DNA of 64,000 bases from Buttiauxella agrestis. Its GTDB lineage: Bacteria; Pseudomonadota; Gammaproteobacteria; Enterobacterales; Enterobacteriaceae. The first letter of the stretch is position 1; the number at the start of each line of letters is the position of its first letter. Shown here in pieces: positions 24,613 to 40,972 of the stretch. The notes under the pieces were generated by a model, which saw nothing but the letters and a program-made list of their open reading frames with translations, was not told where the DNA came from and ran no database searches. Made by a program: the position numbers and the translations under genes. The DNA is taken from positions 1,638,763 to 1,702,762 of the forward strand of contig NZ_UIGI01000001.1 of NCBI RefSeq assembly GCF_900446255.1. Direction: 5' to 3'.

Positions 24613-25608
24613 ATGAAAGATAAGGTTATTTTTGTTGGTGCATCTGGCTTCGTTGGAACCCGACTGATTGAAACAGCACATTCTGAATTCGAGATCAAAA
24701 ATTTAGATAAACAAGGTAGCCACTTTTATCAAGACATTACTGTTACCGGTGATGTTCGTGAACAAAGCTCTCTTGATGACCATTTCTTCGGACAAAACAC
24801 CGTAGTGCTACTTGCAGCTGAACACCGCGATGACGTAAGCCCAACTTCGCTCTACTATGATGTGAATGTTCAGGGAACGCGTAACGTCCTGGCTGCAATG
24901 GATAAGAATGGTGTTAAGAATATCATTTTCACCAGTTCTGTAGCTGTTTATGGTCTTAACAAAAAAAATCCTGACGAAACCCATCCTATAGATCCCTTCA
25001 ATCATTATGGTAAGAGCAAATGGCAGGCGGAAGAAGTCCTGCGTGCCTGGCATAATGAAGCGCCTGAAGAACGTTCTCTGACTATCATTCGTCCTACCGT
25101 AATTTTCGGTGAGCGAAATCGTGGCAATGTCTACAATCTCCTTAAACAGATTGCCAGTGGTAAATTTGCGATGGTAGGAGCAGGTAACAATTACAAATCT
25201 ATGGCTTACGTCGGCAATATTGTTGAGTTCATCAAGTACAAACTCCAGAATGTTGAGGCCGGTTATCAAGTCTACAACTATGTTGATAAACCTGATCTCA
25301 ATATGAATCAGCTAGTATCCGAAGTTGAAAAAAGCTTAAGCAAAAAAATCCCATCTGTTCACTTACCCTATCCGGTAGGGATGCTTGGCGGCTTCTGTTT
25401 TGATGTTTTGAGCAAAATCACGGGTAAAAAGTACTCAATCAGTTCGGTGCGGGTGAAGAAATTCTGCGCAACGACACAGTTTGATGCGAGTAAGGTACAT
25501 GCTTGTGGTTTTGTTGCACCTTACACCTTGTCGCAAGGTTTGGATCGTACTTTGCAGTATGAATTTGTCTCCGCTAAAAAAGACGATATCACTTTTGTTT
25601 CTGAGTGA
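24613..25608 (+). CDS. gnu: Gnu, GlcNAc-PP-undecaprenol 4-epimerase
   Basis: The 331-residue extended SDR closely resembles Z3206/Gnu of E. coli O157, which epimerises undecaprenyl-PP-GlcNAc to undecaprenyl-PP-GalNAc so that O-repeats can start with GalNAc. It has the GASGFVG NAD turn (9-15), SSVAVYG (108-114) and Tyr132-x3-Lys136. Location between wcaM and galF is the same as in O157-type strains. A 230-base gap precedes it, with a TATAAT at 24496-24501 but no convincing -35. A plain NAD epimerase of another substrate is possible, but similarity to Gnu runs over the whole length. Confidence 0.88.
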   Translation: MKDKVIFVGASGFVGTRLIETAHSEFEIKNLDKQGSHFYQDITVTGDVREQSSLDDHFFGQNTVVLLAAEHRDDVSPTSLYYDVNVQGTRNVLAAMDKNGVKNIIFTSSVAVYGLNKKNPDETHPIDPFNHYGKSKWQAEEVLRAWHNEAPEERSLTIIRPTVIFGERNRGNVYNLLKQIASGKFAMVGAGNNYKSMAYVGNIVEFIKYKLQNVEAGYQVYNYVDKPDLNMNQLVSEVEKSLSKKIPSVHLPYPVGMLGGFCFDVLSKITGKKYSISSVRVKKFCATTQFDASKVHACGFVAPYTLSQGLDRTLQYEFVSAKKDDITFVSE

Positions 25609-28378: not shown

Positions 28379-29464
28379 ATGAAAATTTTAGTTACTGGCG
28401 GTGCTGGATTTATTGGGTCCGCTGTTGTTCGCCATATCATCGAAAATACAAACGATGAAGTCATAAATGTAGATAAGCTAACATACGCTGGTAATCTTAG
28501 TTCAGTTGCTGATGCTTCAACCAGTGATCGGTATCAATTTGTACAAGCTGATATTTGTGACAAAGAAGCTATCGATTCAATTTTCGAATTACATCAACCT
28601 GATGCAGTCATGCATTTAGCCGCAGAAAGTCATGTCGACCGCTCTATTTCTGGCCCCGGTGAGTTCATCGAAACCAATATCACTGGCACATATGTACTGC
28701 TTGAAACTGCCAGAAAATATTGGATGTCATTGCCAGAATCTCGTAAAAATGCATTCAGGTTCCATCATATCTCAACTGATGAAGTTTATGGCGATTTGCC
28801 ACATCCTGATGAGTGGGACAGTAATGAGCCATTGCCATTATTTACAGAAAAAACATCATATGCCCCAAGTAGCCCTTACTCTGCTTCCAAAGCGGCAAGC
28901 GATCACTTAGTCCGGGCATGGCAAAGAACATACAACATGCCAACAATTGTGACCAATTGCTCGAATAATTATGGCCCTTATCATTTCCCTGAAAAATTAA
29001 TTCCTCTGATTATCCTTAATGCACTGGAAGGCAAAAATTTGCCGATCTACGGAGAAGGCGATCAAATTCGCGATTGGTTGTATGTAGAAGACCATGCTTG
29101 TGCATTATATAAAGTCATTAGCGAAGGCGCGATTGGTGAAACATACAACATCGGAGGTTTCAATGAAAAGAAAAACATTGAAGTTGTTGATACCATTTGC
29201 GATATCCTCGATGAATTAATGCCTAAAGAGACATCATATAAATCGCAGATAACATATGTTGCCGATCGACCTGGTCATGATCGTCGCTATGCAATTGATG
29301 CATCTAAAATTAATAAAGAATTAAACTGGCTTCCAAATGAAACATTCCAAACCGGTATAAGAAAAACAGTTGAATGGTATTTAAGTAACACCGAGTGGGT
29401 CAACAATATAAAAAATGGTACCTACCAAGACTGGATAGCTAAAAACTATACCCAGAGAAACTAA
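28379..29464 (+). CDS. rfbB: dTDP-glucose 4,6-dehydratase (RmlB)
   Basis: The 361-residue SDR turns dTDP-D-glucose into dTDP-4-keto-6-deoxy-D-glucose. It has GGAGFIGS (7-14), the catalytic Thr133-Asp134-Glu135 in HISTDEVYG, and Tyr167-x3-Lys171 in SPYSASK, exactly the RmlB positions. It works with RmlA upstream and RmlC downstream in the pathway. Base composition is AT-rich like its neighbours and unlike the flanking housekeeping genes, as expected for a transferred O-antigen cluster. Confidence 0.97.
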
Positions 29465-29503: not shown

Positions 29504-30382
29504 ATGATGGCAATTCGTAAAGGAATTATATTGGCTGGTGGTTCAGGTACTCGTTTATATCCTGTAACGATGGCTGTTAGTAAACAACTATTACCCATTT
29601 ATGACAAACCAATGATTTACTATCCACTAAGTACGCTAATGCTTGCGGGGATTAAAGATATTCTAATCATAAGCACCCCACAAGATACACCAAGGTTTGA
29701 GCAGTTACTTGGTGATGGTAGCCAGTGGGGATTAAATTTATCCTATAGAATTCAAGAAAGCCCTGATGGTTTAGCCCAGGCATTTATAATTGGTGAGGAT
29801 TTCATTGGTGAGGATAATTGCGCACTAATACTTGGAGATAATGTTTACTACGGTCATGATCTGCCTAAAGAACTGGAACAGGCTGTTACAAAAACCGAAG
29901 GAGCGACCGTATTTGCTTATCATGTCAAAGATCCTGAGCGATACGGTGTTGTTGAGTTTGATGAGTCAGGGAAGGCCATTTCACTTGAAGAAAAGCCTAA
30001 AAAACCAAAAAGTAATTATGCTGTTACTGGCCTTTATTTCTTTGATAACAAAGTTGTCAAAATGGCAAAGAGCCTTAAACCATCAGAGCGTGGTGAGTTA
30101 GAAATAACAGATATTAATCGTCTTTACTTAGAAAATGGTGAATTATCTGTAGCTATTATGGGTCGTGGGTACGCTTGGTTAGATACTGGGACACATGAAA
30201 GTTTGATAGAAGCTGGCAACTTTATTCAGACTATTGAATCAAGACAAGGGCTTAAAGTATCTTGTCCGGAAGAAATTGCTTATCGCATGCATTTTATTGA
30301 TAAAGAACAATTAAAAAAATTGGCAAAGCCACTTAGCAAAAATGAGTATGGCAAATACCTGCTCAATTTGGCTAGGGATTAA
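29504..30382 (+). CDS. rfbA: Glucose-1-phosphate thymidylyltransferase (RmlA)
   Basis: The 292-residue enzyme joins glucose-1-phosphate and dTTP into dTDP-D-glucose, the first step of the pathway. The N-terminal signature [33 protein letters not shown] and the catalytic region [14 protein letters not shown] are RmlA hallmarks. Two consecutive ATG codons (29504 and 29507) follow GAGGAA; either may start the protein. It lies between rmlB and rmlC. Confidence 0.97.
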
Positions 30383-30423
30383 TCAATATCAGTGTGTTAA
30401 ATCGAAGAAGAGTAAATTATTTA

Positions 30424-30978
30424 ATGAAAATTATAGAAACAGGTCTTAAAGACGCCATTGTTATTGAACCCAGAGTTTTTAAGGATGAGAGAGGGTATTT
30501 TTTTGAGCTTTATCAGCAAAAAAGATACGAAGACGCTGGTATTAAACTCCCTTTTGTTCAGGACAACCGCTCACGTTCTACAAAAAATGTATTGAGAGGC
30601 CTACATTTTCAGAAAAATAAACCTCAAGGCAAGCTCGTTACGGTTACCGAAGGGGAAGTCTTTGATGTTGCTGTCGATTTAAGGCCTGATTCTCCTACTT
30701 TTGGTAAGCATCATTCTGTGATCCTTAGTGGTGAAAATTTCCTTGAGTTTTATATCCCTCCGGGATTTGCACATGGTTTTTGTGTATTGAGTGAAGTTGC
30801 ATGTTTCCAATATAAGTGCACAGATTATTATGACCCAACCGATGAAGGTGGGCTTATCTGGAGTGATTCTGAACTTGGTATAGAGTGGCCAATTAATTCT
30901 CCTGTTGTATCGGGGAAAGATCAGGTTTTGCCTTTATTCGACCAAATAAAAGAAAACATAATTAAAGGGTGGAAGTAA
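30424..30978 (+). CDS. rfbC: dTDP-4-dehydrorhamnose 3,5-epimerase (RmlC)
   Basis: The 184-residue cupin epimerises dTDP-4-keto-6-deoxy-glucose at C3 and C5 to dTDP-4-keto-L-rhamnose. It has NVLRGLHFQ with the catalytic His, VFDVAVDLRPDSPTFG, and the IPPGFAHGFCVLSE segment. The ATG at 30424 is chosen because MKIIETGLKDAIVIEP is the normal N-terminus; an in-frame GTG at 30394 would add ten unlikely residues. The stop codon abuts the next start. Its presence commits the pathway to an L-sugar. Confidence 0.96.
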   Translation: MKIIETGLKDAIVIEPRVFKDERGYFFELYQQKRYEDAGIKLPFVQDNRSRSTKNVLRGLHFQKNKPQGKLVTVTEGEVFDVAVDLRPDSPTFGKHHSVILSGENFLEFYIPPGFAHGFCVLSEVACFQYKCTDYYDPTDEGGLIWSDSELGIEWPINSPVVSGKDQVLPLFDQIKENIIKGWK

Positions 30979-31809
30979 ATGGCACATTATACTGTCATAG
31001 GTGGTAAAGGTTTTATTGGTTCTCATATAGTAAAAAAATTAGAAGATACTGGGAAAGATGTTTGGGTTCCTTCGCGAAATGACGACTCAATTTACACAAA
31101 AGATTTAGGTATTGTAATCTATTGTGCTGGTAATGGTGACTGTGCAAAAACACCGTTCAACGTAGTTGAAGCGAATATAACCTTATTGGCTAAGGTTGTT
31201 GAGAAAGCCAATTTTGAAAAATTAATTTACGTTTCTTCTACACGCGTTTATATGAACGGTCCAGGTTCTTCAGAAAATGATGATCTGGTGGTATGTAACG
31301 ATGATAACAGACGTCTCTTTAATATTACAAAACTTGCAGCAGAAGAGTTATGTATCCGAAGCGGGCGAAATGTTGTTATTGTACGACCAAGTAATGTTTA
31401 TGGTTTAGCTTTGAACAGTACATTATTTCTTCCCTCTATTATTCGTCATGCGATTAATAATGGAGAGGTTAATATGTTTGTAAGGCCAGAATATACTAAA
31501 GATTATGTTTCAGTCGATGATGTTGCAGATGTAAGCATTTATCTGTCCAAAGTAATTACAGCAAATCAGCATGTATTTAATATAGCTTCAGGTTACAATA
31601 CAAATGCTCAAGCAATAGCAGATGTATTAGTACAACATACGCAATGTGAAATTAACTGGCATGAAGTCAACTTCCCACGTGAGTATTTCCCGGAAACAGA
31701 CATATCTGCGATAAAAGCTATTTATAAAGATTATACTCCGCGAAATGTGCTTAAAGATCTGGAGTATATGATCAGGAATTTCAAGAATGAACTTGGCAGA
31801 GTTGAATGA
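30979..31809 (+). CDS. NAD-dependent sugar reductase in the rmlD position (possible dTDP-6-deoxy-L-talose synthase)
   Basis: This 276-residue SDR has the GGKGFIG nucleotide turn (8-14), a YVSSTRVYMNG segment (Ser86-Ser87-Thr88) and RPSNVYG. It is not RmlD by its motifs, yet it directly follows rmlC with no gap, where rmlD or the talose reductase tll would stand. I infer that it reduces dTDP-4-keto-L-rhamnose to dTDP-L-rhamnose or, more likely because it is not RmlD, dTDP-6-deoxy-L-talose. Oddly, the SDR Tyr-x3-Lys site reads Phe114-Asn-Ile-Thr-Lys118: the catalytic Tyr is Phe. It may use another residue, be impaired, or do something else. It overlaps wzx by 4 bases. Confidence 0.72.
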   Translation: MAHYTVIGGKGFIGSHIVKKLEDTGKDVWVPSRNDDSIYTKDLGIVIYCAGNGDCAKTPFNVVEANITLLAKVVEKANFEKLIYVSSTRVYMNGPGSSENDDLVVCNDDNRRLFNITKLAAEELCIRSGRNVVIVRPSNVYGLALNSTLFLPSIIRHAINNGEVNMFVRPEYTKDYVSVDDVADVSIYLSKVITANQHVFNIASGYNTNAQAIADVLVQHTQCEINWHEVNFPREYFPETDISAIKAIYKDYTPRNVLKDLEYMIRNFKNELGRVE

Positions 31810-33260
31810 GTGGGTTTAATAGACTGATTAAAAATTCTGTAGCTAATATTATAAATGGTTTTTCAAATGTGATTATGGGGATTGTTATATCTCCATTACT
31901 TTTGCATAAACTGACCACAACTGAATTCTCTGTGTGGTCATTAGCTCTTCAGGCAGGAGCATTGATTGGAATTATTGGCTTTGGACTGCAAATCACGGTT
32001 GGACGATTCGTTTCACTGCATCGAAGTGATCAATTTCAGTTAAGAAGTGTGCTGTATAACTCTAAATTAGTTTCATACATTCTTGCATCTATGATGCTAA
32101 TTTTGGTATTAGTTATTAACCATTACTACTCTTCCTTTTTTACCGCAATACCGGTTGAATATCAAAAACAAGCTAAAACTACTTTTTTGTTAATCTGCAT
32201 ATCTTTTATCATTAATAATATATCTTCTATTTATTTAGGATATTTTACAGGTATTGAAAGAAACGATATTACTGCTTCTGTGAATCTTGTATTCAAAACG
32301 ATACTGGGTGTTTTTATTGTATTCATAGCAAAATATGGTATTTTTGCAATGTGTATTGTTTATTTCTCAATTAACCTTATTAATCAGATTTTCTTTTTCT
32401 ATATTTTTAATAGGAACTTGGGGAAAGACGCAACAAAAAAAACAATGAATGCTGTAGTAATAAAGAAGATTGCAATTTTTTACATTGGATTGTTAATATG
32501 GAATATTGCACAGTTTCTAATCACGGGTATAGGAACATTCACCGTTGGTAAATTCGCTTTTAACGAACTTGCTGGTTATGTACTTGCCATGACACTAATC
32601 AATGCGGTAGTGGGTATAATTGGGGCAATAACCAGTCCGATTATACAACCTATGCTTCGTTTATATAATGCTGGAAAAGTTCAGAACCTTGAAAAGCTAG
32701 TTGTATTACTATCGCTACTGTATGCATTTATTGTTTATATTGCATATTTTGTATCATCTAACATTTCCGGGTGGATTCTTAATTTGTGGTTGGGGCACGA
32801 TTTATCTGTGCACATAGAATCATCTTTTACACTCTTACTTACGGCATTTTTAATCAGGATGATCGCGGCACCTTACGGGATGATGCTGGTGGCTTTCGGT
32901 AAGCAGTTGTCAGTTGCTTACCTCCCTTTACTGGAGGGGGTAATAAATTTTACACTCTCTATATTTTTCGTGAAAGAATATGGAGCCGTAGGTATTGCTT
33001 ATGCAACAGCAATATCTGGGATGTCTATAATGGTTTTCTATGCATTTAAATTTTATAGAGAGTCTGAAATAAGAGATGGACTGATATTTACATCATTTTT
33101 AATAATACCAGCAACTATTTCTGTTTTGATGTTAGTTAATTATTACTTTGCGCATTCGCTATATGGCAAGTATATACACATCAGTCAACTTGCATTAAGT
33201 CTTATATCCTTAATTTTGGTCGCTATTCTAATTAGAAAAATTAAATCTATAGTTGATTAA
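31806..33260 (+). CDS. wzx: Wzx, O-antigen flippase
   Basis: The 484-residue protein is almost wholly hydrophobic with about 12-14 predicted membrane helices, and begins with an amphipathic, basic stretch followed by IINGFSNVIMGIVISPLLL, as in polysaccharide transporter family flippases. It should move undecaprenyl-PP-linked O-repeats to the periplasmic face. The paired charged helices (RFVSLHRSD, GYFTGIERND) are family-like. Only one other multi-helix protein, the wzy candidate at 34216, is in the cluster, so the wzx/wzy split is by length and N-terminal pattern. Confidence 0.88.
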   Translation: MSGFNRLIKNSVANIINGFSNVIMGIVISPLLLHKLTTTEFSVWSLALQAGALIGIIGFGLQITVGRFVSLHRSDQFQLRSVLYNSKLVSYILASMMLILVLVINHYYSSFFTAIPVEYQKQAKTTFLLICISFIINNISSIYLGYFTGIERNDITASVNLVFKTILGVFIVFIAKYGIFAMCIVYFSINLINQIFFFYIFNRNLGKDATKKTMNAVVIKKIAIFYIGLLIWNIAQFLITGIGTFTVGKFAFNELAGYVLAMTLINAVVGIIGAITSPIIQPMLRLYNAGKVQNLEKLVVLLSLLYAFIVYIAYFVSSNISGWILNLWLGHDLSVHIESSFTLLLTAFLIRMIAAPYGMMLVAFGKQLSVAYLPLLEGVINFTLSIFFVKEYGAVGIAYATAISGMSIMVFYAFKFYRESEIRDGLIFTSFLIIPATISVLMLVNYYFAHSLYGKYIHISQLALSLISLILVAILIRKIKSIVD

Positions 33261-33323: not shown

Positions 33324-34208
33324 ATGATGAAAATTGGCTTGGTTACAGTGCTTTATAATTCCCCTGCGGTTTTGACCGATTTTTTCTCTAGTTTAGCAGT
33401 GCAGAATTACAACGAATATTGTTTATATGTTGTTGATAATAGTTCATCGTCTGAGTCATTGAATTTAGCCAGAAAACTGAGCGCTGAATTATTTATCAAT
33501 GTTAAATTTATCGATAATCAAGGTTCAAATGTTGGTGTCGCTGCTGGTAATAATCAAGGCGCGAGAGAAGCATATGAAGATAATTGCGATTATATCCTTT
33601 TTCTTAACAACGATCTGCTCTTTGAAAACCCAAATATCCTCAAATCATTAGTGATATATGCAGATAGTCAAAAAATGGATATGGTCAGCCCAACCATTTT
33701 GAATTATCCAGAAAAAAAAGTATGGTACTGTGGTGGATATTTTGATGAGTGGAAGTCGTTAGCTCCTCACAAAGATATCGATACCGCTTATAATGCTGCA
33801 AATTTCCCACCGGTACATCAACACGATTATGCTCCAACTTGTTTTTTGATGGTGTCACGTCATTTATGGGATACGATCGGAGAGATGGACGAGAAATATT
33901 TTGCTTATTATGATGACACTGATTTTTTATATCGTGCTCGTAAAGCTGGATTTGTTGTTAATGTTATATCTGATTTAATAATTTATCATAAAGTCGGATC
34001 TTCAACTGGTGGTGACTTATCTTATTTTGGCATGTACCATTTGACCCGAAATAGATTGTATTTTATTCGAAAAAATTTACATGGACTTAAAAAAGCTTAT
34101 TCATTATCCTATTTGTTTCTAACTCGATTATATATGCTGATTTTTACTTCCAATAGACAGAAGAAAGCAATTCGTAAAGGATTGATTGATGGTTTACGTA
34201 TGAAATGA
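33324..34208 (+). CDS. GT2 glycosyltransferase, rhamnosyltransferase-like
   Basis: The 294-residue protein is a GT2 (GT-A) transferase of the RfbF/WbbL type: IGLVTVLYNSPAVLTDFFSSL, VVDNSSSSESL, NVGVAAGNNQGA, and the metal-binding LFLNNDLLF. The later motif FAYYDDTDFLYRARKAGF is characteristic of rhamnosyltransferase-like GT2s. With rmlBAC in the cluster, it probably transfers rhamnose or 6-deoxytalose. Two adjacent ATGs (33324 and 33327) are candidate starts; the ribosome site (AAAGGG) is rather distant. It sits between wzx and wzy. Confidence 0.85.
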   Translation: MMKIGLVTVLYNSPAVLTDFFSSLAVQNYNEYCLYVVDNSSSSESLNLARKLSAELFINVKFIDNQGSNVGVAAGNNQGAREAYEDNCDYILFLNNDLLFENPNILKSLVIYADSQKMDMVSPTILNYPEKKVWYCGGYFDEWKSLAPHKDIDTAYNAANFPPVHQHDYAPTCFLMVSRHLWDTIGEMDEKYFAYYDDTDFLYRARKAGFVVNVISDLIIYHKVGSSTGGDLSYFGMYHLTRNRLYFIRKNLHGLKKAYSLSYLFLTRLYMLIFTSNRQKKAIRKGLIDGLRMK

Positions 34209-36479: not shown

Positions 36480-37079
36480 ATGTTAAATATGATTCAACAC
36501 TATGGAATATTGGGTTTAATTAAATTAATTTTTGATAAATTTATTACATTTTTTATTTTTAAAAATGCCAGAATAATTCGTAGACCTTTTGATGTTCGCG
36601 GTAAGAAAAAAATGTCAATCGGCCCAGGGTTAACAACCGGTCGGTATTGTAGGCTTGAAGCACATGGGGTAGATGACCAATATTCTTTAGTTATTGGCCG
36701 GGATTGTCAGATTAATGACTCCGTACATATAGCTGCGGCAGAAAGCGTTAAACTGGGTGATAATGTATTGATTGCCAGTCGTGTTTTCATTACCGACTTA
36801 AATCATGGTGTCTATAAAGGTGATTTGCAATCTCACCCTGATATCATTTGTAACGAAAGAACATTGCATACTAATCCTGTTGATATAGGATCAAACGTTT
36901 GGTTGGGTGAAGGTGTAGTGGTTCTCCCTGGTGTTAGTATTGGCTCCTCATCGATAATAGGTGCTAATTCTGTAGTTACAAGAAGTATACCGGCTAATTC
37001 TATCGCCGTTGGGAATCCAGCGAAAATTATTAAACATTTTGATTTTAATTTAAATAAATGGGTAAGTGTTAATGATTAA
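36480..37079 (+). CDS. Hexapeptide-repeat acetyltransferase (third of cluster)
   Basis: The roughly 199-residue protein has an N-terminal helical stretch (HYGILGLIKLIFDKFITFF), then GKKKMSIGPGLTTGRYCRLEA and a left-handed beta-helix (VIGRDCQINDSVHIAAAESVKLGDNVLIASRVFITDLNHG) with the catalytic-type His in DLNHGVYKG, ending SIAVGNPAKIIKHF. This is the WbbJ/WcaF-type sugar O-acetyltransferase. The start is uncertain: ATGs at 36441, 36465 and 36480 are in frame; 36480 avoids overlap with the preceding gene. Substrate unknown. Confidence 0.84.
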   Translation: MLNMIQHYGILGLIKLIFDKFITFFIFKNARIIRRPFDVRGKKKMSIGPGLTTGRYCRLEAHGVDDQYSLVIGRDCQINDSVHIAAAESVKLGDNVLIASRVFITDLNHGVYKGDLQSHPDIICNERTLHTNPVDIGSNVWLGEGVVVLPGVSIGSSSIIGANSVVTRSIPANSIAVGNPAKIIKHFDFNLNKWVSVND

Positions 37080-38097
37080 TGATAGTACTGCTTTATTTAT
37101 TTGCCCTGACTTCTTCGATTATAAAAAATACATAACCCAGGAATTGTCCTCTAAGTATAAAAAAGTTATTAGCTTGTCAGACCGCCCTGCCTGTTCTTCA
37201 ATTGCGAAGGCCCTAATTAAGTATAATGCCCCAGTTTATTCTTCTGCGATAGCCGCTAAATATAGCCAACATATCATTAACCTGATAGAAAATGAGCTTC
37301 CGAATATTTCAGATGTTATCATTATAAAGGGTACTTGTATTACACCTTCGTTTATTGAGCAGTTGCGGAGCAAGAAAAATGACATCAATATAGTGTGTTA
37401 TTCATGGGACTCAATTTCCAACATCAAGACGTTTATTTCTCTTGCTGAAAAAGCCGACAAGTCTTTTACTTTTGATCTAAAAGATAGTGTTGATTATAAG
37501 TTGAATTATCTACCGCTATTTTATGTAGACCATGCTGTTTGTGTTGATATTTCAGATGCGTCTGATTCTACTATAACAAATAACATTTTTGACTACACAT
37601 TTATAGGAAGCTACCACGGAGATCGTATTCGTGTGCTATCCAAGTTTTTATCAAAGAAACCCAATTCGAAAAGTTTTATAAAAATATATTTTCAGAGCTA
37701 TTTGCAGTATTTATTTTATTTGGCCACCGACTCATCTTTACGTTCATGCTCTAAAGAATGGATTACTTTCAAGCCGCTATCGCGCGTTGAGCTAGAAGCA
37801 AAAGTAGAATGCAGTGAAGCTATTATTGATATTCATCATTCAGGGCAAACAGGTCTAACGATGAGGACCTGGGAAACGCTTCATGCAGGACACCGATTGA
37901 TAACTACTAACCCTGTCGTTCTTTTGCACACTACAACTAAATTAGCAACGGTAATTGATCGTGACAGCGGTACAGAGTGGGAAAGTGATCAATGTGAAAA
38001 ATATCGGTACGAGTTGCTGAAATTAGTTCCACACTCGGTAAGTTATGAAAGTTTGCCATTGTCCGATTGGATCATGGCGCTGCTAATGAAGAGCTAA
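37072..38097 (+). CDS. Predicted glycosyltransferase of an uncommon GT-B-like family
   Basis: The 341-residue protein is not one I recognise by name. Its N-terminal half has VIIIKGTCITPSFIEQL and the phrase IVCYSWDSISNIKTF, then SFTFDLKDSVDYKLNYLPLF, DYTFIGSYHGDRIRVLSKFL, and a C-terminal block DIHHSGQTGLTMRTWETLHA. The last block, with a conserved Arg and Glu, resembles the donor-binding helix of GT-B enzymes such as CgeB-like and capsular transferases. In a cluster with only two other clear transferases, it is the best candidate for the third. The ATG at 37072 follows GGGTAAG; a GTG two codons upstream is possible. It ends 3 bases before manC. Confidence 0.65.
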   Translation: MINDSTALFICPDFFDYKKYITQELSSKYKKVISLSDRPACSSIAKALIKYNAPVYSSAIAAKYSQHIINLIENELPNISDVIIIKGTCITPSFIEQLRSKKNDINIVCYSWDSISNIKTFISLAEKADKSFTFDLKDSVDYKLNYLPLFYVDHAVCVDISDASDSTITNNIFDYTFIGSYHGDRIRVLSKFLSKKPNSKSFIKIYFQSYLQYLFYLATDSSLRSCSKEWITFKPLSRVELEAKVECSEAIIDIHHSGQTGLTMRTWETLHAGHRLITTNPVVLLHTTTKLATVIDRDSGTEWESDQCEKYRYELLKLVPHSVSYESLPLSDWIMALLMKS

Positions 38098-38100
38098 AAA

Positions 38101-39528
38101 ATGAGTATTTTTCCCGTAATTATGGCTGGCGGAAACGGTAGCCGCCTATGGCCGTTGTCCCGTGTGCTTTACCCAAAACAGTTCCTGTGCCTGAAAGGGG
38201 AACTAACGATGTTGCAAACAACCGTCAGCCGACTGAATGGCGTCGAATGCGAAAGCCCGGTGGTGATTTGCAACGAACAGCACCGTTTTATCGTCGCCGA
38301 ACAACTACGCCAGCTTGATAAGCTCACAAATAATATCATTCTTGAACCTGTTGGTCGCAATACCGCACCGGCTATCGCGCTTGCAGCACTGGCGGCGGTG
38401 CGCAATCAGCCACAAAATGACCCGCTGATGCTTATTCTGGCAGCTGATCATATTATTCAGAATGAAGAAGCTTTTCGAAATGCGGTACGCAACGCTTTGC
38501 CATATGCGGAAGCCGGGAAATTGGTCACATTTGGCATAATTCCCGTTCAACCTGAAACAGGATATGGCTATATCCGTCGTGGTGATGAGCTTAATTCTCA
38601 ATGCGTAGGCACTGGTTTTAATGTTGCCGAATTTGTCGAAAAACCGGATCTTGACACCGCGCTGGCCTATGTCGCCAGCGGCGAATATTACTGGAATAGC
38701 GGCATGTTCCTGTTCCGTGCCGGGCGCTACCTCGAAGAGCTGAAAAAATTCCGCCCGGATATTCTCAGCGCCTGCGAAAAAGCGATGGCGAATATCGACC
38801 CGGATCTCGACTTTGTGCGCGTTGACGAAGCGGCGTTCCTGGCGTGCCCGGATGAGTCTATCGACTACGCCGTGATGGAAAAAACTGCCGATGCGGTGGT
38901 GGTGCCAATGGATGCGGGCTGGAGCGACGTGGGTTCATGGTCTTCTCTTTGGGAAATCAGCACCAAAAACCAGCAGGGTAATGTGCATCACGGCGATGTG
39001 ATAAGCCACAATACCGAAAACAGCTACATCTATGCGGAATCCGGCCTGGTGACTACCGTCGGCGTGAAAGATTTAGTGGTGGTACAAACTAAAGATGCGG
39101 TTCTGGTTGCAGACAGGAATTGCGTTCAGGATGTGAAAAAGATCGTCGAAGAACTGAAAGCAGCGGGTCGCCACGAGCACCACAACCACCGCGAAGTGTA
39201 CCGCCCGTGGGGCAAATACGACTCCATCGATGAAGGCGAGCGCTACCAGGTAAAACGCATCACCGTGAAACCGGGCGAAGGTTTGTCTTTGCAGATGCAC
39301 CACCACCGCGCCGAACACTGGATTGTGGTGGCGGGTACCGCGAAAGTCACACTGGGTGAAGAGACAAAATTGCTGGGCGAAAACGAGTCCATCTACATCC
39401 CGCTTGGCGTGACGCACTGCCTGGAAAACCCCGGCAAAATCCCGCTCGACCTGATTGAAGTGCGTTCCGGCACTTACCTCGAAGAAGACGACATCGTGCG
39501 TTTTCAAGACCGTTACGGGCGTATCTAG
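38101..39528 (+). CDS. manC: Mannose-1-phosphate guanylyltransferase, O-antigen copy
   Basis: The 475-residue enzyme makes GDP-mannose for the O-antigen. It has [14 protein letters not shown] at the N-terminus and the C-terminal cupin [16 protein letters not shown]. Compared with the copy at 14479, the first third and a patch at about 39070-39170 have many changes, mostly silent or conservative, while the stretch around 38640-39065 and the last 350 bases are nearly identical. That mosaic pattern suggests gene conversion between copies. Base composition returns to the chromosomal norm here, unlike the AT-rich genes just upstream. Confidence 0.97.
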
Positions 39529-39549
39529 CCAATAAAAATTTGATGAGTC

Positions 39550-39569
39550 CCCGCAGACCACTCTGCGGG
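39550..39569 (+). other. Conserved hairpin in the manC-manB gap (O-antigen copy)
   Basis: CCCGCAGA and TCTGCGGG pair around a 4-base loop, identical to the hairpin at 15946-15965. The surrounding 73-base gap is the same in both copies, including the GAAGGAGAC ribosome site. Confidence 0.6.
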
Positions 39570-39601
39570 TTGGGTAACTGTTGCCCGAAGGAGACTGAAA
39601 A

Positions 39602-40972
39602 GTGCAAAAACTGACCTGTTTTAAAGCCTACGACATCCGTGGTCGCCTGGGCGAAGAGCTGAATGAAGACATTGCGCAGCGCATTGGCCGCGCCTATGGC
39701 GAGTACCTGAAACCGAAAACCATCGTACTGGGTGGCGATGTGCGCCTGACCAGTGAGCGACTTAAACTGGCGCTGGCTAAAGGATTGCAGGATGCGGGCG
39801 TGGACGTGCTGGATATCGGCCTGTCCGGCACCGAAGAAATCTATTTCGCCACCTGGCATCTGAATGTGGACGGCGGCATTGAAGTCACCGCCAGCCACAA
39901 CCCGATGGACTACAACGGCATGAAACTGGTGCGCGAAGGCGCTCGCCCAATCAGCGGCGACACCGGCCTGCGCGACGTGCAGCGTCTTGCGGAAGCCAAT
40001 GACTTCCCGCCAGTTGATGCTGCAAAACGTGGCAGCTACCAGAAGATTTCGGTGGTTAAGGCGTATATCGACCATCTGTTCACCTACATCAACGTGGCCA
40101 ATATCAAGCCACTGAAACTGGTGATTAACTCTGGTAACGGCGCGGCTGGCCCGATTGTCGATGCTATCGAAGCCCGCTTTAAATCACTCAATGTGCCGCT
40201 GACGTTTATCAAAGTGCACAACCAGCCTGACGGTAATTTCCCGAACGGTATCCCGAACCCGCTGCTGCCGGAGTGTCGCGACGACACCCGCAATGCGGTG
40301 ATTGAACACGGAGCGGATATGGGGATTGCCTTTGACGGCGATTTCGACCGCTGCTTCCTGTTCGATGAGAAAGGGCAGTTCATTGAAGGCTATTACATCG
40401 TCGGCCTGCTGGCGGCGGCCTTCCTGGAAAAACAGCCGGGGGCGAAGATTATTCACGACCCGCGTCTGTCGTGGAACACGGTGGATATCGTGGAGCGCGC
40501 AGGTGGCACACCGGTGATGTCGAAAACCGGGCACGCGTTTATCAAAGAGCGCATGCGTCAGGAAGATGCGATTTACGGCGGCGAAATGAGCGCCCACCAC
40601 TATTTCCGTGATTTTGCCTACTGCGACAGCGGGATGATCCCGTGGCTGCTGGTGACGGAACTGCTGTGCCTGAAAGGCAAAACCCTGGGCGAACTGGTGC
40701 GTGACCGCATGGCGGCGTGGCCGGCGAGCGGGGAAATCAACAGCAAGCTGGCCGATCCGAAAGTCGCCATTGAACGCGTACAGCAGCACTTTTCGCCGCA
40801 CGCGGAAGAGATCGATAACACGGACGGCGTGAGCATGGCGTTTGCCGACTGGCGCTTTAACCTGCGCAGCTCAAACACCGAGCCGGTGGTGCGCCTGAAT
40901 GTGGAATCGCGCAATAACAGCCAGCTGATGGAAGAAAAAACAGAAGAAATCCTGAAACTGTTGCGGCAGTAA
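39602..40972 (+). CDS. manB: Phosphomannomutase, O-antigen copy
   Basis: The 456-residue enzyme converts mannose-6-phosphate to mannose-1-phosphate. It keeps the phosphoserine loop [11 protein letters not shown] (Ser98) and Mg site DGDFDR (245-250). It is a near copy of the gene at 15998: differences are few across the body, but after NVESR the last 19 or so residues change abruptly ([19 protein letters not shown]), marking a recombination endpoint. GTG start at 39602. It is the last gene of the O-antigen cluster before gnd. Confidence 0.97.

Follow-up and report, generated by a model that had tools for sequence, protein, structure and literature searches.

In a 64,000-nucleotide stretch of the Buttiauxella agrestis genome (contig NZ_UIGI01000001.1; hereafter the window), the rmlB, rmlA and rmlC genes of an O-antigen cluster are followed by an open reading frame (ORF) encoding a short-chain dehydrogenase/reductase (SDR), which we call tll-like (Table 1). 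Its frame is intact, its first base comes directly after the rmlC stop codon (30978), and its 3′ end overlaps a wzx-like gene (31806) through the sequence ATGA. RmlB, RmlA and RmlC all scored above curated family cut-offs. No RmlD was seen among window ORFs of at least 80 amino acids when the rmlD ORFs of two other loci, L071 and L072, were used as queries (E ≤ 1e-5): the first gave no match, and the sole match of the second was an epimerase-like protein encoded at 24613 (20.6 bits). The tll-like ORF is itself ruled out as RmlD, scoring 17.3 bits against the RmlD model TIGR01214, for which the cut-off is 224. The original prediction, a note made by a model from the sequence alone, had reported rmlB, rmlA and rmlC without rmlD, and for the window this holds. 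The gene therefore has the position of tll: it comes after rmlC, rmlB and rmlA belong to the same cluster, and there is no rmlD. Tll is the name given to the reductase of such gene sets in O-antigen surveys of Enterobacter and Aeromonas.

Table 1. Positions in the window of the tll-like gene, selected codons and neighbouring genes
Feature	Position	Strand	Remarks
tll-like ORF	30979..31809	+	276 aa, ATG start; Pfam Epimerase 82 bits
Cys55	31141..31143	+	29/29 Phe rows; Phe or Tyr in 14 Tyr rows
Ser86-Ser87-Thr88-Arg89	31234..31245	+	closes strand 81-85; may stand in for Tyr
Codon TTT, Phe114	31318..31320	+	SDR catalytic Tyr position; motif Phe114-Asn-Ile-Thr-Lys118
Lys118	31330..31332	+	Lys of x3K motif; kept in 29/29 Phe-branch rows
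Tyr172	31492..31494	+	alternative candidate acid or nucleotide contact; 29/29 Phe rows, 1/14 Tyr rows
rmlB, dTDP-glucose 4,6-dehydratase	28379..29464	+	715 bits, above curated cut-off
rmlA, glucose-1-phosphate thymidylyltransferase	29504..30382	+	536 bits, above curated cut-off
rmlC, dTDP-4-dehydrorhamnose 3,5-epimerase	30394..30978	+	246 bits, above curated cut-off
wzx-like flippase	31806..33260	+	51-52% identity to E. coli O88 Wzx
Family 2 glycosyltransferase (GT2)	33324..34208	+	48% identity to O88 counterpart
Two ORFs, putative manC and manB	38101..40972	+	presumed mannose supply for O unit; from ORF list

In nearly all SDRs the Tyr of a Tyr-x3-Lys motif is the acid/base, and in SDR reductases it donates a proton to the new alkoxide. 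The window protein is an extended SDR of the nucleotide-sugar type by its Gly-rich Rossmann fold and by its catalytic Lys and Ser/Thr (K118, S87, T88), and has Phe114 in place of the catalytic Tyr. This substitution had been noticed in the original prediction, and is borne out by the ORF, the alignments and the predicted structure. Phe114 and Lys118 aligned with the Tyr and Lys of SPYGVTK in MoeE5, a solved SDR, both by phmmer and by profile, and both lie on a predicted helix (residues 112-127); the preceding stretch, 91-110, was modelled at low confidence. RmlB of the window and the epimerase-like protein have Tyr at this column. A displaced Tyr-x3-Lys was found nowhere in the window protein (residues 1-274); scattered motifs of this kind, mostly non-matching, occur in 7 of the 29 Phe-type rows described below.

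Relatives of the gene were collected from several sources. Of 5426 E. coli genomes searched by blastn, 119 gave matches, none reaching 80% query coverage; 40 of these were listed, and eight loci and then six more were fetched from the matching genomes. In all of the initial eight, rmlC is followed by the gene or, in L008, by what is left of it, and the flippases are annotated O88, O45, S88-variant O45, O66 or O109. Seven of these copies were aligned; they are 53-61% identical to the window protein (56% for O45 and 55% for O66), all with Phe. By motif, Phe is present in the later six as well, although five share protein accessions with the earlier seven and L076 alone is new. In L008 (E. coli strain ESBL 15) several genes of an O109-type cluster are frameshifted, pointing to O antigen loss or sequencing error; the tll frame there is a fragment and was omitted from the alignment. 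A scan of genome contigs with the single window protein as query found no relative, and a profile scan yielded 16 loci. In searches of overlapping groups of genomes, relatives were found in 2 of 40 related genomes, 9 of 392 from the family, 7 of 394 from the order, 2 of 369 from the class and 11 of 398 from the phylum (thresholds 1e-15 for class and phylum, otherwise 1e-20). G001, the nearest genome compared (25% of sampled words shared with the window), gave no Tll match. Relatives in other gammaproteobacteria likewise follow rmlC; over all relatives, those of E. coli included, the measured identities are 50-63%. In 25 of 28 Phe-type loci other than the window, rmlC ends between -8 and +59 nucleotides from the start of the gene.

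After removal of identical and broken sequences, 45 rows were aligned. The column of Phe114 holds Phe in 29 rows and Tyr in 16 (two being outgroups from the window), with no other residue, and Lys118 is matched by Lys in all. Two of the Phe rows are identical over the aligned stretch, leaving 28 distinct ones. The Phe codon is TTT in 18 rows and TTC in 11, and the ratio of non-synonymous to synonymous substitution (dN/dS) in six pairs of relatives is approximately 0.07 to 0.23; pairs that include the window are saturated at dS. Phe114 is thus a deviation from the SDR rule that is clade-wide and not private to this strain, and its presence in all branch rows, the use of two codons and the low dN/dS indicate an inherited, maintained state. 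The Rossmann glycines, Ser87 and Lys118 are invariant in the Phe branch. Cys55, Asp109, Tyr172 and Trp227 are among the residues that are fixed in this branch alone. Ser86, Ser87, Thr88 and Arg89 are each present in 29 of 29 Phe rows, and in 12 to 14 of 14 Tyr rows.

On a tree built without the Tyr/Phe column, all Phe rows lie together on one side of a branch with support 95/87, and one Tyr/Phe change suffices. When four long-branch rows were removed (the two outgroups, L036 and L044), the split of the remaining 41 rows was supported at 100/100. The direction of the change, from Tyr to Phe, is judged from the outgroups and from the fact that SDRs as a rule have Tyr. All 13 rows of the sister group have Tyr, and most share SSTR and the Tyr and Lys that follow. 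A CDP-glucose 4,6-dehydratase scored above the curated cut-off in 10 of the 13 sister loci (L022, L023, L046-L052 and L054). Neighbours were surveyed in 11 of the 13 (all except L061 and L062): RmlC-like proteins are present in 9 of these, and in 9 of the 10 dehydratase loci, while L053 has no dehydratase-like ORF within 10 kb. The probable substrate of the sister enzymes is therefore a CDP-linked ketosugar, on which they would use the usual Tyr, perhaps in a CDP-6-deoxysugar pathway comprising CDP-glucose 4,6-dehydratase and the RmlC-like epimerase. Given these neighbours, the change from Tyr to Phe would accompany a move to the dTDP pathway. Within the Phe branch, a deep sub-branch of L034/L055 and L063 (100/100) has rmlB and rmlA upstream, with rmlC not seen or distal; it possibly makes another product.

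The combined action of RmlA, RmlB and RmlC would make dTDP-4-keto-L-rhamnose. The window enzyme would then use NAD(P)H to reduce the ketone at C4, yielding dTDP-6-deoxy-L-talose for the O antigen. RmlD was sought in 13 named genomes carrying a Phe-type gene, a set separate from the E. coli genomes. Ten of the 13, genomes of unstated completeness, gave no match at E ≤ 1e-30, so no route for the RmlC product is visible in them other than the Phe-type enzyme. A dependence of the strain on another reductase, raised in the original prediction, is therefore unlikely as a general rule. According to the title of a paper, 6-deoxy-L-talose occurs in the polysaccharides of E. coli O45 and O66 and of a strain related to O45, so the Phe enzymes presumably work. 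The O unit of Pectobacterium brasiliense F152 is described as mannose with a branch of acetylated 6-deoxy-L-talose; the acyltransferase-like ORFs and putative manC and manB of the window suggest that its own O unit may be similar. A literature search for O88 paired with 6-deoxy-L-talose gave no paper, and another listed PMC8498110, in which both short terms occur once; the sugar content of O88 is therefore a presumption.

Taking the gene context, the conservation of Phe, the single change and the intact frame, all established here, we consider it likely that its product is a working reductase of the Tll type making dTDP-6-deoxy-L-talose for the O antigen. Phe114 would be what members of the Tll branch normally inherit, a state fixed through a single Tyr/Phe change when the branch parted from the Tyr-containing relatives linked to CDP-glucose 4,6-dehydratase.

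Phe is unable to donate a proton as Tyr does. How such an enzyme might work without Tyr is suggested by PglF, in which a Thr-Asp pair takes the proton from the C4 hydroxyl; both PglF and WbpM are described as extended SDRs without Tyr (PMC8987622). The PglF stretch was mapped to Ser87-Thr88-Arg89 by hand from the motif. In the window enzyme Lys118 would still hold the nicotinamide ribose, and Ser87-Thr88, with Arg89, on the opposite wall would stabilise the C4 oxyanion and supply its proton, a part comparable to that of the Thr-Asp pair in PglF. This assignment of Lys118 to the cofactor, and of Ser87-Thr88 with Arg89 to acid and oxyanion support in place of Tyr, is put forward tentatively, at rather less than even chances. 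Talose and rhamnose differ at C4, so hydride must reach the face opposite to that in RmlD; the sugar would accordingly turn its other C4 face to the hydride. On this hypothesis, the re-seating of the sugar would also make clear why Tyr serves no purpose at its former position. It is possible, but somewhat doubtful, that the whole branch of ketone-reducing SDRs works without Tyr, the change to Phe being part of a stereochemical and substrate switch to L-talo products with the Ser-Thr-Arg wall protonating.

Several observations weigh against a Tll role or its proposed chemistry. An RmlD match was obtained in 3 of the 13 Phe-type genomes (completeness unstated), two of them above the cut-off, and an adjacent rmlC is missing from 3 of the 28 loci: none was seen in L021 and L034, and in L063 it lies further downstream. 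The two outgroups fall apart on the tree, so the direction of the Tyr/Phe change is less sure than the split. Because Ser87-Thr88-Arg89 is conserved in the Tyr rows too, no compensation for the lost Tyr is visible. The window Wzy-like ORF has no match in two O88 loci and the family 4 glycosyltransferase (GT4) is just 31-32% identical to its counterpart, so the O unit is not simply that of O88. No Phe-branch member with an enzyme assay was found. The assayed Tll of A. actinomycetemcomitans was seen in none of the 140 genomes searched from the family of G032, a single family picked by uptake-signal counts, in a search that had no positive control and in which the assayed serotype may be unrepresented. 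Depending on whether that enzyme has Phe or Tyr at this position, published work may already imply activity without Tyr. No Phe site was reported in the titles, abstract openings and passages surveyed on such a site or on 6-deoxy-L-talose and its genes, a survey that did not extend to Nakano 2000, the founding paper.

The original prediction had allowed for a tll-like enzyme either with an unusual catalytic residue or damaged by mutation. The former agrees with Phe in 29 of 29 branch rows and the position after rmlC. That the enzyme of this particular strain was damaged when a single base change removed its catalytic Tyr was suggested by TTT lying one base from a Tyr codon. In that form the idea is refuted by a column in which Phe is fixed, with two codons in use, and the frame is intact within the O-antigen operon; we give it almost no credence. 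Another explanation accepts a functional Tll in which the proton comes from Tyr172, present in all Phe rows versus 1 of 14 Tyr rows. Two positions further on is the Lys/Arg-Asp-Tyr motif; in extended SDRs that motif touches the nucleotide and not C4, which makes binding of dTDP the likelier role for Tyr172. A relocated tyrosine thus seems unlikely, and we prefer Ser87-Thr88 with Arg89 as acid, ranking Tyr172 second.

Loss of Tyr abolishes or cripples activity in most SDRs, and the Phe branch could on that account have given up reductase chemistry to become a binding or regulatory partner, with another SDR reducing the ketone. This is very improbable, given the ten genomes with no RmlD match, the invariant Rossmann glycines, Ser87 and Lys118, and the talose named for O45 and O66 in the title cited above. 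We likewise see little prospect that the enzyme is a reductase with some other product, such as dTDP-D-fucose formed from dTDP-4-keto-6-deoxy-D-glucose without RmlC. The sub-branch of L034 and L063, with rmlB and rmlA and no adjacent rmlC, fits such a product, but the window gene lies directly against rmlC and falls in a 27-row branch (97/89) in which rmlC precedes 25 of the 26 other rows.

In its front half the O-antigen cluster resembles that of E. coli O88. Compared with the two O88 loci, identities are 76% for RmlB, 85% for RmlA, 77% for RmlC and 59-61% for Tll, falling to the values in Table 1 for Wzx and GT2. The start of rmlC is likelier to be the ATG at 30424 than the GTG chosen by the ORF finder, as the family model match begins at residue 12. 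Three acyltransferase-like ORFs in the cluster scored below curated cut-offs; the two at the front are 54 and 63% identical to proteins of L002, and in L001 both match one ORF (30 and 39%). The names manC and manB are provisional ones, taken from the sequence. The ORF at 37066-38097 is a candidate 6-deoxytalosyltransferase. It is 29-31% identical to the S88 gene adjoining tll, annotated as a WaaS/CpsH-family glycosyltransferase, and also to a gene further on in O45 and to the tll neighbour in L021. Genes annotated likewise lie next to tll in the O109 locus L006 and two genes on in HL15. The epimerase-like ORF (24613-25608) sits between genes named wcaM and galF from their sequences, which are adjacent in S88.

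The missing Tyr is therefore no fresh mutation, and the enzymes of the branch must do their chemistry another way, probably making 6-deoxy-L-talose for the surface coat. A reductase branch with a fixed Phe offers a clean case for ketone reduction without Tyr outside the Mx3K dehydratases, and warns annotators against calling copies without Tyr inactive. Phe114 together with Cys55, Asp109, Tyr172 and Trp227 provides a sequence mark that parts Tll from its Tyr-containing relatives.

Among known systems, Tll of A. actinomycetemcomitans serotype c is likened to the window enzyme by gene position (after rmlC, no rmlD) and proposed substrate; by sequence, the likeness is to the copies in the E. coli O45, S88, O66, O88 and O109 clusters. 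RmlD shares the substrate and the place in the pathway, but gives the opposite C4 configuration and is remote in score from the window protein. It has a catalytic Tyr. The nearest relatives outside the branch, the Tyr-type SDRs of CDP-glucose 4,6-dehydratase loci, differ by Tyr at the column and by the CDP-pathway gene nearby. The dTDP-L-rhamnose 4-epimerase Tle/WbiB, compared by description rather than by sequence, also yields dTDP-6-deoxy-L-talose, but from dTDP-L-rhamnose; it would call for a catalytic Tyr, where the window protein has Phe, and for an upstream RmlD, which was not seen in the window but may lie elsewhere in the genome. The M. abscessus enzyme reportedly loses activity when its Tyr (Y181) is replaced (PMC11549994). 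The closest precedent for the window enzyme is provided by the UDP-GlcNAc 4,6-dehydratases WbpM and PglF (Mx3K), which are active extended SDRs without the catalytic Tyr (PMC8987622). They differ in having Met rather than Phe, in being dehydratases and not reductases, and in placing Thr-Asp-Lys on the opposite wall, where our hand mapping would put Ser-Thr-Arg in the window enzyme.
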